A stretch of DNA of 64,000 nt from Mesorhizobium sp. J8 (GTDB lineage: Bacteria; Pseudomonadota; Alphaproteobacteria; Rhizobiales; Rhizobiaceae). The DNA is taken from assembly GCF_016591715.1 (NCBI RefSeq), contig NZ_AP024109.1, positions 2,108,001 to 2,172,000 on the forward strand, in the 5' to 3' direction. The position numbers were made by a program, and so were the translations under genes. Below, in pieces: positions 21,818 through 33,889 of this stretch; positions within the stretch are counted from its first letter, which is position 1, and every line of letters starts with the position of its first letter. The notes below the pieces were generated by a model. It was not told where the DNA came from. It made no database searches and saw only the letters and a list, made by a program, of their open reading frames with translations.

Positions 21818-22552
21818 TCAGGATTTCGACGGCCCGGCACCGAGACTCGCGATCGCCGATTTGAGCGGCGCTTCGCCGGCGCCGCGAAAAGTCTCGCTCA
21901 TCACCAGTTCGGGCAGCGGCAGGCGCTTGCCCCAGCCATGCGCTTCGAGGTCCGGCTTCGGGGCGAAGGCGGAGACGCGGCCGACGCACAGATAGGCGAT
22001 CGGCGTGACATGCTCCGGGATCGACAGAAGCCGCTTCAGCGCCTCCGTTTCGATGATGCTCACCCAGCCGACGCCGACACCCTCGGCGCGTGCCGCCAGC
22101 CAGAAATTCTGCACCGCGCAGACCGTGCTGTAGAGATCCATCTCCGGATTGTGCCAGCGCCCGAGCGGCGAACCCTTCGAGCGCTGCCGGTCGCAGGTGA
22201 TGCAGAGATTGAGCGCGCTTTCGCATATGCCTTCGAGCTTCAGTTTCCGGTATAGCGCCTGCCGCTCCGCCTCGATCGCCGGCAATTCCTGCTCGCGCGC
22301 GGCGAGGAACAGATCGCGCACTTGTCTGCGCCGCTCGGCATCGCGGATGACGATGAAATTCCACGGCTGCATATAGCCCACCGACGGCGCATGATGCGCG
22401 GCGGTGAGAAGCCGCGCCAGCACGCAATCGTCGAGGTCGTCGGGAACAAAATGGCTGCGCACGTCACGCCTGGTGAACATCGCCCGATAGACCGCGTCGC
22501 GCGCCAGTTGGTCAAAGTCGTCGCCGCTCGCGGCGATCGCTGCTGCCGTCAT
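21818..22552 (-). CDS. bluB: 5,6-dimethylbenzimidazole synthase
   Basis: The 244-aa nitroreductase-fold enzyme cleaves reduced FMN with O2 to form the lower ligand of vitamin B12. Recognisable segments are RRDVRSHFVPDDLDDCVLARLLTAAHHAPSVGYMQPWNF, DLYSTVCAVQNFWLAARAEGVGVGWVSI and IAYLCVGRV. The B12-riboswitch at 22607-22762 on the same strand, ending about 54 nt before the start codon, fits perfectly with repression by cobalamin. The riboswitch makes this assignment firmer than a generic nitroreductase call. Confidence 0.92.
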   Translation of the reverse strand: MTAAAIAASGDDFDQLARDAVYRAMFTRRDVRSHFVPDDLDDCVLARLLTAAHHAPSVGYMQPWNFIVIRDAERRRQVRDLFLAAREQELPAIEAERQALYRKLKLEGICESALNLCITCDRQRSKGSPLGRWHNPEMDLYSTVCAVQNFWLAARAEGVGVGWVSIIETEALKRLLSIPEHVTPIAYLCVGRVSAFAPKPDLEAHGWGKRLPLPELVMSETFRGAGEAPLKSAIASLGAGPSKS

Positions 22553-22887
22553 CGCTTTTCCCCTTGCGACAAGCAGTCCTCCGCCTGACCAAGCGGAAGA
22601 CCGTGTCTGCCGGGCCGGTCTTCTGGCTCGGGATCGTCCCGCCCCGGCGCCTTCCCGTCATCGACAGTGGCGTTTGCCGGCGCGGTCCCCCTCACAGCGT
22701 TGGGCACGCCACGGAGTTCAACCGTGTTCCCGATTCTCCCGCGTCGCGGGCACCAGGCAGCGAAGTGACCTTACCGCGAAGTTGGGCACCCGCCAATGGC
22801 GCGGACGACATGGGCTTGCGCAATTTCCCCAGCCATTCGGCTTTTCAAACATGGTCATTGCGGCCGCGGGTGCCTAGATTAGGCGCC
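22553..22887. promoter_or_regulatory. Divergent leader region between bluB and the deacetylase gene
   Basis: This 335-bp gene-free stretch holds the cobalamin riboswitch on the minus strand. The remaining ~125 bp (22763-22887) must contain the promoter of bluB and that of the HDAC-like gene on the plus strand. I see no other clear site. Confidence 0.6.
22607..22762 (-). ncRNA. Cobalamin riboswitch controlling bluB
   Basis: Reading the minus strand from ~22762, the leader contains GGTGCCC, then GGGAACACGGTTGAACTCCGTGG, a GCCACTG box, GACGGGAAGGC and the B12 box GAGCCAGAAGACCGGCC (complement of 22613-22629). These are the ordered conserved blocks of the adenosylcobalamin aptamer. A short CTTCCGC/GCGGAGG hairpin between the aptamer and the ribosome site could be the expression platform. 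Boundaries are approximate. Confidence 0.88.
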
Positions 22888-28277: not shown

Positions 28278-29054
28278 ATGGGTTCCCCTTTGCCATCAAG
28301 CCAGCGCCAGCGGCTCGACGAATTGCTCGTCGGGCGCGGTCTGTTCGCCAGCCGCTCGCGCGCCCGCGACGCGATCGAGCGCGGCACCGTGACGGTCGAC
28401 GGCGCGATTGCCCGTAAGCCCGGCCAGCCCGTTGGGCCGGACTGCGTTGTCGCTATCGACGATCCGGCGCAAGCCTATGTGTCGCGCGCGGCCCTGAAAC
28501 TGATCGCCGGCCTCGATCGTTTCGGCCTCGATCCTTCCGGCAGCGAGGCGCTCGATATCGGCGCCTCGACCGGCGGCTTCACTCAGGTGCTGCTGAAACG
28601 CGGCGCGGCGCATGTCACGGCGATCGATGTCGGCCACGCCCAGATGCATCCCGAGATTGCCGGCGACCCGCGCGTAACGGTGATCGAGGGACTGAACGCC
28701 CGCGATCTGAAGGCCGCCGATCTCGGCGGCCGCGTTCCCGGTTTCCTGGTTTGCGACGTCTCCTTCATCTCGCTGAAGCTGGCGCTGCCGCCGGCGCTGG
28801 ACTTGGCGGGCGAGGGCGCCAAGGCAATCCTTCTGGTCAAGCCGCAATTCGAGGCCGGACGCGAGGCGATCGGCAAGGGCGGCCTGCTCAAGGATCCGGG
28901 CGATGCCGAGCGCATTGCCGGGAATTTGCGCGATTGGCTTGCCGACATTTCCGGCTGGCGCGTGCTGGGACTCCACCCGTCGCCGATCGAAGGGGGCGAC
29001 GGCAACCGCGAGTTCCTGCTTGCCGGCATCAAGGACGCAGGACCATGGCGATGA
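28278..29054 (+). CDS. tlyA: TlyA-family rRNA 2'-O-methyltransferase / hemolysin-like
   Basis: The 258-aa protein has an N-terminal S4 RNA-binding domain (residues ~9-65, QRLDELLVGRGLFASRSRARDAIERGTVTVDG) and an FtsJ-like SAM methyltransferase domain (LDIGASTGGFTQVLLKRGA, VCDVSFISLKLALPPAL, KPQFEAGREAIGKGG). TlyA methylates cytidine 2'-OH in rRNA. It overlaps the next gene, another RNA methyltransferase. Confidence 0.87.
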   Translation: MGSPLPSSQRQRLDELLVGRGLFASRSRARDAIERGTVTVDGAIARKPGQPVGPDCVVAIDDPAQAYVSRAALKLIAGLDRFGLDPSGSEALDIGASTGGFTQVLLKRGAAHVTAIDVGHAQMHPEIAGDPRVTVIEGLNARDLKAADLGGRVPGFLVCDVSFISLKLALPPALDLAGEGAKAILLVKPQFEAGREAIGKGGLLKDPGDAERIAGNLRDWLADISGWRVLGLHPSPIEGGDGNREFLLAGIKDAGPWR

Positions 29055-30292
29055 GCACACGCTTCACCATCGCGAGGCTCGGCTCGCAGGGCGACGGCAT
29101 TGCCAATGCGGAGGGCGAGGAGGTGTTTGTCCCGTTCACGCTGCCGGGCGAAACGGTCACGGCCGCGCGACAGAAGGATCGCGCCTCGCTAATGTCGGTG
29201 CTGGAAGCCTCGTCGCTCAGGATCGATCCGGCCTGCCGCCATTTCACCGAATGTGGCGGCTGCGCGCTGCAGCATTTCGAAGCCGAAGCCTACCGGCAAT
29301 GGAAGCGCGAGAGGGTCGTGCAGGCACTGAAGGCCAAGGGCATCGCTTGCGAGGTCGCTGCGCTGGTGCCCTGCGCGCCGCACACCCGCCGCCGCGTCAC
29401 TTTCAGCGCCAGGCGCACCGAGGCCGGCATGCTGCTCGGCTTCGTGCGCGCGCTATCCTCAGAGATCATCCCGATCGAGGAATGCCCGATCTCGCTGCCG
29501 GCGATCGTCTTGGCGCTCGATAAATTGCGCGCCCTCGCCGGACTGGTCTGCGCCACGCCGAAGGCGTTTCACATGACGGTGACCGTCACCGCGTCGGGCC
29601 TCGACATCGCCGTCCATGATGCCGGTAAGCTTGGCGACCAGCAGCGGCGCATCGCGTCGAATTTCGTCATGGCCGAAGGTCTGGCCAGGCTTTCCGTCGA
29701 TGGTGAGATCGTCGTCGAGCCGAAGAAGCCGGTGGTTCAGTTCGGACCGGTCGCCGTCGCGGTGCCGCCCGGCGCTTTCCTGCAGGCGACGGAAACCGCC
29801 GAGCAGACGATGGCGGGCCTCGTCGGCCAGCATCTGTCGCGCGCCAAGAAGGTCGCCGACCTGTTCGCCGGCTGCGGCAGCTTCGCGCTTCGGCTGGCGG
29901 CGAAGTCGGAGGTCCATGCCGTCGAAGGCGATGCGCCGGCGCTTGCCGCGCTCGACCGTGCCTACCGCTTCGCCAGTGGCCTGAAGCGGGTGGCCAGCGA
30001 ACGCCGTGACCTGTTCCGCCGGCCGCTGACCTTCAAGGAGTTGAACACCTTCGACGGGCTGGTCTTCGATCCGCCGCGCGCCGGCGCCGAGGACCAATCC
30101 AAGCAGATCGCCCGCTCCGACGTGCCGCTGGTCGCCGCCGTCTCCTGCAATCCGGTGACGCTCGCGCGTGATCTGCGGATCCTGATCGATGGCGGCTATG
30201 CGCTGAAGAGTGTCACGCCGATCGACCAGTTCCTGTGGTCGCCCCATGTCGAGGCCGTGGCGCTACTGGAAAAGCCGAGAAGACGGCGATAG
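29045..30292 (+). CDS. rlmD: Class I 23S rRNA (uracil-5-)-methyltransferase, RlmD/RumA-like
   Basis: The 415-aa protein has a TRAM-like N-terminus, the iron-sulfur cysteines in CRHFTECGGCALQHF, the SAM motif ADLFAGCGSFALRLA, FDPPRAGAEDQ and the catalytic Cys in VSCNPVTLARD. It methylates U at C5 in 23S rRNA; whether the site is U1939 or another is not certain, because alphaproteobacterial members differ. The start overlaps tlyA by 10 nt (ATG 29045; ATG 29051 also possible), giving translational coupling. Confidence 0.83.
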   Translation: MAMSTRFTIARLGSQGDGIANAEGEEVFVPFTLPGETVTAARQKDRASLMSVLEASSLRIDPACRHFTECGGCALQHFEAEAYRQWKRERVVQALKAKGIACEVAALVPCAPHTRRRVTFSARRTEAGMLLGFVRALSSEIIPIEECPISLPAIVLALDKLRALAGLVCATPKAFHMTVTVTASGLDIAVHDAGKLGDQQRRIASNFVMAEGLARLSVDGEIVVEPKKPVVQFGPVAVAVPPGAFLQATETAEQTMAGLVGQHLSRAKKVADLFAGCGSFALRLAAKSEVHAVEGDAPALAALDRAYRFASGLKRVASERRDLFRRPLTFKELNTFDGLVFDPPRAGAEDQSKQIARSDVPLVAAVSCNPVTLARDLRILIDGGYALKSVTPIDQFLWSPHVEAVALLEKPRRRR

Positions 30293-30450: not shown

Positions 30451-33078
30451 ATGCGCTCGCTTCGGAAAGTCATCGGTCTTGTCGTCATTCTCATCGCGTT
30501 CGCCGTCGCGTCCACGACCGGCGCTCTTGCCCAACAGCAGAAACGTCTCGCATTCGTCATCGGCAACGCCGCCTATCCGTCGGATGCGCTTGCCACCTCC
30601 GCGAATGACGCCGGCCTGATTGCGCAGACCCTGCAGGCAGCGGGATTCGATGTGGTCGGCGCACGTGATGTCGACCAGGAATCCTTGCGTGGCGCGCTGC
30701 GCGATTTCCTTGGAAAGGTTTCCGCCGCCGGTCCGGACGCGACCGTTTTCGTGTACCTTGCCGGCCGCGGCGTGCAGTTCGAAGGTGAGAACTATTTCCT
30801 GCCGGTCGACGCCCAGATCGCCAATCCGGCCGACGTGCCGCTGCAGGCCTTGCGGCTCTCCGACATCACCAGGTCTCTGGCGGGACTGCCGGCGAAGGTC
30901 AATATCGTCGTCCTCGACGCGGCGCGGCCGAGTGCCCTCCCGAAAATGAGCCAGCCGCTGGCCAGCGGTCTCGCGCTGGTCGACCCCGACCCCAACATGC
31001 TGATTGCGTTCAACACGGCGCCCGGAACGGTTGCGCCGGAAGGCAAAGGCCCATACGGCGCCTATGCTCAGGCACTTGCCGAGATGATACGCGAAGCCGG
31101 CTTGTCGCTTGACGAGGTTTTCGACCGCACGCGGCTACGTGTGAACGAGGTGACGCAAGGCGCCGAAGTCCCGTGGGACGCCTCGAAGATCAGCGCGCCT
31201 TTCGTCTTCTTCGAACGCGCGCCGGACGCGCCGCCGCCGAAGGTGTCCGAGGCCGAATCCCGGGCCAACCGGACCAGAGCGATCCGCGATTTCAATGCGC
31301 ATGACGCCTATGTCGCGGCACTCGATCGCGATACCATGGGCGGTTATGAGGATTTCCTCGTCGCCTATCCGCACGATCCGATGGCCAAGCGCGTGCGCGC
31401 CATCATCGCGGCGCGGCGCGAGGCGATCACCTGGCGCGAAACGTGGCTGCGGGATACGCCGGAGGCTTATTGGTCTTACCTGGAGCGCTATCCGCATGGG
31501 CTGCATGCCTGGGACGCGCGCCGCCGGCTCGAGCATTTCGACGCCGAGCTCGAGCCGCCGCCGAGCTTCTCCGTCATCGTCTATGACGTGCCGCCGCCTC
31601 CGCCGGAGGAAATCGTCTATGTCGACCGTCCGGTGCTCTATTTCGACGATCCCGATTTCGATTTCGAGCCGCCGCCCCCGGTCGACGTGATCTTCCTGCC
31701 GCCGCCCCCGCCGGATTTTGTCGTGCTGCCGCCGCCCCCGCCGCCGGTCGATGTTTACGTCCTGCCGACGCCGGTCTTTGTCCCCGTGCCGGTCTGGGTC
31801 AGGCCGCCGCGTGACATCGTGCCGCCGCCGAACGACATCATCTTCAACAACATTCACAACACGACCGTCATCAACAACGTCAACAACACGACGATCAACA
31901 ACGAGCCGGCCAATCAGGCCGGGCAGCCAAACGCCAATGCACCGGGTGGCCTCACCACCGGTCAGAAGATGGCGGTTGGCGCGGGCGCCGCCCTGGCGGC
32001 CAAGGTGGCGCTGCCGCCGTTGCTGCAGAAAAGGGCAGTGTTGTTCAAGCAAAATCAGGGCGGCCAGCCGCTGAAGCCCGGCCAGGCTGCAACGCAGGCC
32101 CAGCAGCCGGGCGCGGCCGCGCAACCGCTGAAGCCCGGCCAAGCTGTCACGCAGGGCCAGCAGCCGGGCACGACGCCGCAGGCGAGGACGATGGGCAAGC
32201 TCTCGACCGATCACGCCTTGCCGGGAGCTGACGGCAAGGCGCTGCCGCTCGTCAACGGCAAGCCGGCGCTCAACGGCCAGAATGCGCCCAACAGGAAGGT
32301 GCCGGGCAAGCAAGGCACGGCGAGTGGCAACCAGCAGGCTACCGGGAATGCCGGCGCCCCCGTTACGGGCAGCGGCCAACAGAACGGAGTTGTCGACAAT
32401 CAGGGCAAGAAGGGCAAGTTCCGGAAGCTGCCGACCGTCAACAGCGCGCCGGGCGAGAAAGGGCAGAACGCCCAGCAGAGGTTCGGGAAGAACAACCCAA
32501 ATGCGTTGTCCGGCCAGAACGAAGGCAGGCCGAGGAAGCTGACCCGCAAGGATCTGTCGGCAGGCCAGACGGCTGTCGGCCCGAGCGATCAAGGCTCGGT
32601 CAATGGAAGCGATAGAGGTAAGAAGCTCCGCAAGCTTCCGACGGTCAACGGGGCGCCGGCCGAGAATCGGCCGAGCGTGCAGGAGCGGCTCAGGAGAAAC
32701 AATCCGAGTGTTTTCTCCGATCAGAATCAAGAGTCCGCCAATGAAAACAGGAAGCTCCGCAGGCTGCCGAACGGCGAAGAAGGTTCTGCCGGCGCGGGCA
32801 CCGACCTCCAGCGCAAATTCAAGCAGGAAAGGCCGAACGTGCAGGTGCTCAGGCCGCAAAGGCCAGAGTTCCAGGCGCAGCCAAAGCCTCGGATGCAAGA
32901 GAGACGCCTGCAGCAGTTGAGGCCTGAGCCTCAGATGCAAGAAAGACGCTTGCAGCAGCCGCGGCTTCAGCCTCAGATACAGGAACGGCGCCTGCCGCAG
33001 CAGCCCAAGGAGCAACCGCCGCAGGGAAACAAGAAGCCGACCTGCGGGCGTCCTGGCGAGCCGCCCTGCCAGCAGTAG
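30451..33078 (+). CDS. Secreted caspase-fold (peptidase C14) protein lacking both catalytic residues, with long repeat tail
   Basis: The 875-aa protein has a signal peptide (residues 1-28), then a C14/metacaspase p20-like domain (~30-255): KRLAFVIGNAAYPSDAL, DATVFVYLAGRGVQFEGENYFLPVDA and NIVVLDAARPS. Active members have His in SGHG and Cys in DACRN; here these are Arg106 (codon CGC, 30766) and Ala158 (codon GCG, 30922), so it should not be a protease. Residues 260-365 are helical. Residues 369-460 are Pro-rich, and 466-484 Asn/Thr-rich. The tail has a 19-residue pair (QPLKPGQA at 539 and 558), a 69-residue pair (RKLPTVN at 658 and 727) and three 14-residue units (QERRL at 816, 830, 844). ATG 30451 is preferred over TTG 30439. 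Role unknown; probably a periplasmic or surface scaffold. Confidence 0.82.
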   Translation: MRSLRKVIGLVVILIAFAVASTTGALAQQQKRLAFVIGNAAYPSDALATSANDAGLIAQTLQAAGFDVVGARDVDQESLRGALRDFLGKVSAAGPDATVFVYLAGRGVQFEGENYFLPVDAQIANPADVPLQALRLSDITRSLAGLPAKVNIVVLDAARPSALPKMSQPLASGLALVDPDPNMLIAFNTAPGTVAPEGKGPYGAYAQALAEMIREAGLSLDEVFDRTRLRVNEVTQGAEVPWDASKISAPFVFFERAPDAPPPKVSEAESRANRTRAIRDFNAHDAYVAALDRDTMGGYEDFLVAYPHDPMAKRVRAIIAARREAITWRETWLRDTPEAYWSYLERYPHGLHAWDARRRLEHFDAELEPPPSFSVIVYDVPPPPPEEIVYVDRPVLYFDDPDFDFEPPPPVDVIFLPPPPPDFVVLPPPPPPVDVYVLPTPVFVPVPVWVRPPRDIVPPPNDIIFNNIHNTTVINNVNNTTINNEPANQAGQPNANAPGGLTTGQKMAVGAGAALAAKVALPPLLQKRAVLFKQNQGGQPLKPGQAATQAQQPGAAAQPLKPGQAVTQGQQPGTTPQARTMGKLSTDHALPGADGKALPLVNGKPALNGQNAPNRKVPGKQGTASGNQQATGNAGAPVTGSGQQNGVVDNQGKKGKFRKLPTVNSAPGEKGQNAQQRFGKNNPNALSGQNEGRPRKLTRKDLSAGQTAVGPSDQGSVNGSDRGKKLRKLPTVNGAPAENRPSVQERLRRNNPSVFSDQNQESANENRKLRRLPNGEEGSAGAGTDLQRKFKQERPNVQVLRPQRPEFQAQPKPRMQERRLQQLRPEPQMQERRLQQPRLQPQIQERRLPQQPKEQPPQGNKKPTCGRPGEPPCQQ

Positions 33079-33217: not shown

Positions 33218-33889
33218 TTACGAGCTTGGAGACAGCCGTTTCGCCGTGCCGCCGCGCTGGTTGAGCGAAACCCAGACATTCGGGTTCTGCTGCGACTGTC
33301 GTTTCAGGAAATAATAGCCGGTGGCGTTCCACGGCCGGATTTCGTCGACGAGATTGTCCAGCACGAGATCGCCCTTGTCGGTCTTCACGGTCAGGATCGT
33401 GTGGCCCTCGTTGTGCAGGTCGCGCACCACCGTCATCAGCAGCGCCTGCCGGGGAAATCCCGCTTCCTGGAGAAGCTTGCGCTTGTAGAGAGCGTAGATC
33501 TTGCAATCGCCCTTGCCGTCCGTCGGATAGTCCCAATGGTCCATCATCGTGCCCCAGTGATCGTAGTTGCTGACGGGCGTGATGGAGCGGTTCGCCTTCT
33601 GGTTTATCCGCTTGAGGATGCTCATGTTCTGCGCGGTCAGCTTGACGCTCGCGGCGGGCAGGGGGGGCACCTTGCACTCCTTCGGCCGGCGATGACAGAA
33701 ATCGAGCCAGCCATACGGCACGCTGGTGCTGGCGCCGACGGTGGCGGAACTGGCAGATTGCGCCGCCATTCGCTTGAACCATGTCGACTGGGCCGCCGCG
33801 GCAGGGCCTGCCTGCAACGACGTCGCACCAATCAACGAAACGAAACCAAGAAGGAAAGAAGAGGTCAGGACGCCAGGGGAACGCTGCAT
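33218..33889 (-). CDS. Secreted transglutaminase-like cysteine proteinase (BTLCP family, DUF920)
   Basis: The 223-aa product has a signal peptide (cleavage near AQS, residue 34). The domain has a likely triad Cys129 (GKGDCKIYALYKR), His163 (HNEGHTILTV) and Asp178 (DLVLDNL), as in the LapG/BTLCP family of periplasmic proteases. It also has FCHRRPKECK, typical of alphaproteobacterial members. LapG cleaves surface adhesins under c-di-GMP control, but no LapD or LapA homologue is in the window, so the target is unknown. It is convergent with the pseudo-caspase gene. Confidence 0.83.
   Translation of the reverse strand: MQRSPGVLTSSFLLGFVSLIGATSLQAGPAAAAQSTWFKRMAAQSASSATVGASTSVPYGWLDFCHRRPKECKVPPLPAASVKLTAQNMSILKRINQKANRSITPVSNYDHWGTMMDHWDYPTDGKGDCKIYALYKRKLLQEAGFPRQALLMTVVRDLHNEGHTILTVKTDKGDLVLDNLVDEIRPWNATGYYFLKRQSQQNPNVWVSLNQRGGTAKRLSPSS

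Follow-up and report, generated by a model that had tools for sequence, protein, structure and literature searches.

An apparently exported pseudo-orthocaspase with both catalytic residues replaced in Mesorhizobium sp. J8

The window analysed here is a whole stretch of 64,000 nucleotides from Mesorhizobium sp. J8 (assembly GCF_016591715.1, contig NZ_AP024109.1, positions 2,108,001 to 2,172,000 of the forward strand). It harbors a gene for a caspase homologue in which both catalytic residues are replaced: an open reading frame (ORF) of 875 amino acids (aa) at 30451-33078 on the + strand in the ORF listing. A first-pass annotation of this DNA had placed the protein at 30451-31215, a span that covers just the first 255 codons. 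The single Pfam domain at E 0.001 is PF00656 (Peptidase_C14, residues 31-250, 124.5 bits, E 7e-36), a match far above chance, and the nearest named proteins are from Mesorhizobium. The N-terminus consists of a hydrophobic stretch and then ALA ahead of residue 28; by eye it resembles a cleavable signal peptide, and the protein is apparently exported. AlphaFold gives a clean caspase fold (predicted local distance difference test, pLDDT, 93), next a helical domain resembling tetratricopeptide repeats (TPR), and mostly low confidence beyond. The TPR-like identity comes from the models, Pfam finding no TPR. Model and Pfam score bear out the initial claim that the fold is retained. The features of the gene follow; a row is one aligned sequence, and the Ala clade is the clade that includes the present protein.

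30451..33078, + strand: whole gene, 875-aa pseudo-orthocaspase, apparently exported (ORF; Pfam PF00656; ratio of nonsynonymous to synonymous substitution rates, dN/dS)
30451..30531, + strand: signal-peptide-like N-terminus, residues 1-27 (by eye; comparable hydrophobic N-termini in 12 sequences)
30541..31218, + strand: caspase (p20-type) domain, residues 31-256
30607..30609, + strand: Asp53, acidic residue at an S1-pocket position (134/134 Ala-clade rows, 50/50 His-Cys rows, 80% of 26 other pseudo rows)
30766..30768, + strand: Arg106, catalytic His position (120-homologue alignment; 14 parsimony steps in 75 Mesorhizobium rows)
30916..30918, + strand: Asp156, second acidic S1-pocket residue (100% in all four groups)
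30922..30924, + strand: Ala158, catalytic Cys position (Ala in 119/120 listed homologues; 0 steps in 75 rows)
31249..31536, + strand: six-helix TPR-like domain by modelling, residues 267-362
31567..31860, + strand: proline-rich segment of low model confidence, residues 373-470, isoelectric point (pI) about 4
32131..33075, + strand: low-complexity basic tail, residues 561-875, pI about 11, of strain-variable length
33043..33075, + strand: C-terminal two-cysteine motif CGRPGEPPCQQ, residues 865-875 (C-x6-9-C end in 118/120 listed homologues)

Both catalytic positions are substituted, as first reported: the His motif reads YLAGRG with Arg106 (codon CGC), the Cys motif LDAAR with Ala158 (codon GCG), and the GENYFLPVDA segment is present. 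A pseudo-orthocaspase is defined by a caspase p20 domain with at least one catalytic residue replaced (Klemencic and others, 2019, PMC6426788; this and the other papers are cited for parts of their text), and the protein has both properties. The definition further includes the lack of a separate p10 domain and of proteolytic activity. As regards p10, the 875-aa protein has one Pfam domain and its model aligns to residues 340-563 of MALT1. Cysteine occurs just twice in the protein, at positions 865 and 873 near the C-terminal end, so that the caspase domain contains no cysteine nucleophile, and residues 29-372 are likewise free of Cys in 118 of the 120 listed homologues. Judged from this Cys-free domain, cysteine protease activity is excluded.

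The two positions behave very differently among homologues. The alignment comprises 120 listed homologues of 3784 over threshold, the window's own protein among them. At the Cys position Ala occurs in 119 and Ser in one, and Cys in none; the His position carries His (43), Gln (41), Arg (18), Tyr (16) or Glu (2), and Phe in 0 of the 120. Ala158 is thus fixed and Arg106 is not. The first-pass annotation had held that homologues retaining His and Cys in most strains would point to random decay of this copy: His was found in 43 of the 120, but Cys in none, and Ala at the Cys position means that His does not restore the dyad. Whole genomes give the same contrast within the genus, where 75 distinct Mesorhizobium domains all have Ala at the Cys position and vary at the other (His 34, Gln 24, Arg 11, Tyr 3, Glu 2, Asn 1). 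On a domain tree of these 75 rows, built without columns 106 and 158, site 106 changes 14 times (joint third of 226 sites, mean 2.3), and site 158 does not change at all, nor do A104, G105, G107 and Q109. The Arg106 of the window belongs to a clade of nine rows, all with Arg (Shimodaira-Hasegawa-like approximate likelihood ratio test, SH-aLRT, 98), and Arg occurs separately in loci L046 and L175. With catalysis lost, the His position would be nearly free, which would explain its variation among His, Gln, Arg, Tyr, Glu and Asn in Mesorhizobium.

The substitutions have a direction. Orthologues at 58-75% identity in other Rhizobiales (named loci in Rhizobium, Agrobacterium and Pleomorphomonas, and genomes of other families of the order) carry Tyr at the His site without exception (59 of 59 distinct intact rows), and their Cys site is Ala in 58 rows and Gly in 1. 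Locus L214, which falls in the same identity band, is a broken Mesorhizobium copy and lies outside these 59 rows. Parsimony assigns Tyr to the root of the 135-row Ala clade and His or Gln to that of Mesorhizobium; the His of 34 of the 75 Mesorhizobium rows is therefore probably a reversion from Tyr after the loss of Cys and not the ancestral catalytic residue. The codons at site 106 are compatible with single-base steps around CAY and CAR. In a tree of 187 rows one branch (SH-aLRT 99) separates all 158 rows lacking the dyad from 29 His-Cys rows. This tree omitted 24 of 211 rows, namely L214 and 23 rows that reach no more than about 36% identity (21 His-Cys, and two pseudo rows, L015 and the second L169 ORF). 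Over the 210 intact rows two dyad losses are required, and only one again when the second L169 ORF is removed, which makes that ORF a separate loss. A mixture-model tree of 73 rows, in which long branches are present, gives the deep split a support of 79. The Ala clade is supported at 96 in the 187-row tree (135 rows) and at 94 in the 73-row tree (its 23 sampled rows). On these trees one deep loss of Cys is well supported for the Ala clade, and a single origin of the wider pseudo group (dyads YS, LS, HG, EA, IA and others) is likely without being certain.

Two further sets of relatives were seen. Loci L140, L145, L147, L151, L152, L153, L157 and L158 form a separate lineage with seven LS dyads and one VS, in which Leu or Val stands for the His and Ser for the Cys, and the query match to them extends through the helical domain. 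L130 (G549:C45) and L132 (G466:C1), relatives that are about 50-55% identical and show HA, HG and LA dyads, end in EAEQ/RAREA repeats in place of the two-cysteine motif.

The domain is strongly constrained. The dN/dS ratio, taken over 369 close Mesorhizobium pairs, comes to 0.069 in residues 31-256 and 0.091 in residues 271-372, and by these ratios the gene is under strong purifying selection and not decaying. Together with the lack of Cys in the listed homologues, they uphold the early suggestion that selection maintains a non-proteolytic role, as against random decay. Across 134 Ala-clade rows from several Rhizobiales families, 83 of the 226 domain positions are at least 98% conserved; at 38 of these, including Ala158, the residue is present in fewer than half of 50 His-Cys rows. 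Newly fixed residues form a run in and after helix 1 (A51, G55, L56, Q59, T60, Q62, A63, A64, D67, G70-R72), and T49, N188, T193 and Y202 are newly invariant polar residues of the clade.

The S1 pocket presents a mixed picture. Prokaryotic pseudo-orthocaspases have been described as retaining the pocket acids at both Asp positions (PMC6426788), and the invariance of Asp53 and Asp156 in the Ala clade agrees with that statement; assigning the two residues to these positions, and so equating Asp53 with Asp95 of TbMC2, is our own reading. Elsewhere in the cleft, three residues of the His-Cys rows (Asn49, Ser203 and Cys158) have each given way to a different fixed residue. Asp197 and Pro204 are also replaced, and Gly198 is retained in Mesorhizobium and is Glu in the other Ala-clade rows; Asp197, Ser203 and Pro204 are present in 96-100% of His-Cys rows. 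Through these replacements the substrate side of the cleft has been altered.

The protein belongs to an already described, little understood group, and the first-pass view of it as unusual was overstated, as Rhizobiales forms with Tyr-Ala (YA) and His-Ala (HA) dyads, the former with long C-termini, have been published (PMC6426788). In the same source 561 of 582 alphaproteobacterial pseudo-orthocaspases are in Rhizobiales, and pseudo-orthocaspases are tied to photosynthesis; elsewhere the dyad is given as conserved in 75% for Alphaproteobacteria (PMC3501461). The present protein resembles the YA and HA forms in its p20 domain, lost dyad, Ala at the Cys position, prolonged C-terminus without a Pfam domain and retention of both pocket Asp residues. 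It differs in its Arg-Ala pair, which is absent from the dyads named as common in the cited part of PMC6426788; nor does that part describe His-site drift within one orthologous group, the TPR-like domain, the C-terminal Cys motif or exchange at one site. It shares replacement of the His-Cys dyad with another bacterial caspase homologue, SyOC of Synechocystis PCC 6803; SyOC is cyanobacterial and its deletion raises oxidative stress tolerance (PMC7889975). Among open-licence PMC titles and abstracts (supplements not covered), none was found on the His-site drift, the C-terminal motif or the Mesorhizobium exchange.

Three other assignments were rejected. The paracaspase MALT1, with which the caspase model shares 21% identity over the aligned part, is an animal protein that has a death domain, and its further domains are not found here by Pfam. 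Paracaspases of this type carry Ig-like domains alongside the caspase domain (PMC6426788); at E 0.001 Pfam gives PF00656 only, with no Ig or death domain. TPR-containing pseudo-orthocaspases of the FS type likewise have TPR-type helices after the pseudo-p20 domain (PMC6426788), but their dyad is Phe-Ser, in contrast to Arg-Ala here and the absence of Phe106 from the listed homologues. The match to the EACC1-associated caspase family (NCBIfam NF047832) scores 30.5 bits against a curated cut-off of 140.

In Mesorhizobium the gene is accessory. It is present in 73 of 146 genomes (76 matches at E 1e-60), and all but two of the 76 have an open frame of 719-1167 aa. The copy in genome G216 has a frame of 484 aa, and the broken L214 (G178:C90), whose match spans only part of the caspase domain, one of 383 aa. 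Where a locus extends over at least 9 kb, the gene usually lies 3' of two RNA methyltransferase genes, tlyA and rlmD (42 of 49 loci):

28278..30292, + strand: upstream flank, RNA methyltransferase genes of TlyA type (28278-29054) and of what we take to be RlmD type (29045-30292) (Pfam/NCBIfam; synteny)

L193, L196 and L206, from genomes with two matches each (G199, G127 and G145), are copies without this flank, and the synteny was not seen in 39 Tyr-Ala-group loci of at least 9 kb (L214 aside). For sites lacking the gene, rlmD was searched for in 21 of the 73 gene-less genomes and 20 sites were compared. All have the tlyA-rlmD...TldD backbone, with no trace of the pseudo-caspase in any of the 20 (tblastn, E 1e-4), and in two the gap between rlmD and TldD is 11 and 15 bases (alignment ends). 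A tlyA+rlmD tree of 61 rows (41 with and 20 without the gene) requires at least five gains or losses. Gene and flank trees conflict: a gene tree that keeps together the 19 rows with the gene from one flank clade, a group chosen from the flank tree, is rejected by the approximately unbiased (AU) test (p-AU 4e-40). These gains or losses and this conflict indicate an accessory gene exchanged between Mesorhizobium lineages, mostly at one site.

Taken together, the protein may be an exported, non-proteolytic pseudo-orthocaspase that acts as a binding or scaffold module of the cell envelope (probability roughly 0.55). By sequence, the catalytic Cys was lost deep in a Rhizobiales lineage and has been Ala since, and the fold and the two pocket acids are kept. 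After export, the old S1 pocket might still grip an Arg or Lys side chain of a partner, or of the protein's own tail, and leave it uncut; the helical domain could bind a second partner, and the basic tail and a terminal disulphide may anchor the protein to the envelope. Three points weigh against this view: export is judged by eye from the N-terminus; the loss of Asp197, Ser203 and Pro204 may mean that substrate binding of the old type is gone despite both Asp residues; and the gene is missing from half of the Mesorhizobium genomes. A more elaborate version is quite improbable. It sees Asp53 and Asp156 as an uncuttable latch on Arg or Lys of the basic tail or a partner, in a fold turned envelope binding protein throughout Rhizobiales; the former His site of Mesorhizobium (Tyr to His, Gln, Arg, Glu, Asn) would be a tuning position on a module exchanged at one chromosomal site.

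A rather unlikely alternative takes the caspase fold as the rigid body of a surface or cell-wall structural protein, whose helical domain, tail and C-terminal cysteines are selected for adhesion or envelope anchoring in soil or on roots. The strong conservation of the C-terminal motif after an unconserved tail would fit such a protein, as would the low-confidence proline-rich segment, the basic tail and an accessory gene passed between lineages; however, the caspase domain is as constrained as the helical domain or more so, and the Ala clade keeps its pocket acids without exception. It is unlikely, too, that the protein acts on true exported orthocaspases in its own cell as a decoy or an allosteric partner, pairing with them or capturing their Arg/Lys substrates. 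The J8 genome does encode three more PF00656 proteins with intact motifs (YAGHG/YSGHG and DACR) and N-termini that look signal-like by eye, the pocket acids are retained, and c-FLIP (for caspase-8) and TbMC4 (in trypanosomes) are precedents, although the same source deems such a role unlikely for prokaryotic pseudo-orthocaspases (PMC6426788). PF00656 matches at E 1e-10 occur in 136 of the 146 genomes. Genomes with the gene have more other members than those without (median 5 against 3, Mann-Whitney p 0.0009), in a comparison uncorrected for kinship or genome size and with not all dyads of the other members checked; yet 63 of 73 gene-less genomes possess members as well. In two of the 73 gene-bearing genomes, G248 (one contig, 99% complete) and G251 (570 contigs, 93% complete, 8% contamination), the pseudo-caspase is the sole PF00656 match even at E 1. 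Of the roles proposed at first, an obligate decoy or inhibitor of true orthocaspases is thereby unlikely; an occasional one would be compatible with these counts.

That the gene is a dead remnant decaying under relaxed constraint is very improbable. The fast His site and the truncated or broken copies in G216 and G178 would be expected of it, but the low dN/dS, the invariant Ala158, the 83 conserved positions across families and the long frames of nearly all Mesorhizobium matches are opposed to it. Least probable of all is a new catalytic activity of other residues at the old site: the newly invariant polar residues could suggest one, whereas position 158 offers no nucleophile, the domain is almost always free of Cys and Mesorhizobium leaves the His site unconstrained.

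What is moderately surprising is that an old, fixed Cys-to-Ala loss goes together with a His site left free in one genus, and that the gene forms a mobile module of its own. Bacterial pseudo-orthocaspases are numerous, chiefly in Rhizobiales, and a knockout has been described for the cyanobacterial SyOC (PMC7889975). Mesorhizobium offers a natural experiment, with an old fixed loss of Cys, later drift at the His site in one genus and common flanks with and without the gene; this makes knockouts, allele swaps and partner pull-downs straightforward in ordinary laboratory strains of the genus.

Downstream, the pseudo-caspase gene converges with a peptidase gene:

33218..33889, - strand: Peptidase_C93 (BTLCP), convergent downstream gene (Pfam; weak LapG match below the NCBIfam cut-off)

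Of 42 sites that carry the pseudo-caspase, 35 have a Peptidase_C93 gene, against 5 of the 20 that lack it (kinship uncorrected); at these five it follows rlmD by 14-250 bases. The pseudo-caspase matched no PADLOC-DB family at E 0.01, a search silent on undescribed defence systems. Elsewhere in the window, a cobalamin riboswitch (22596-22772, - strand, 106.7 bits) lies ahead of a nitroreductase-family gene (21818-22552, - strand) that may be of BluB type.
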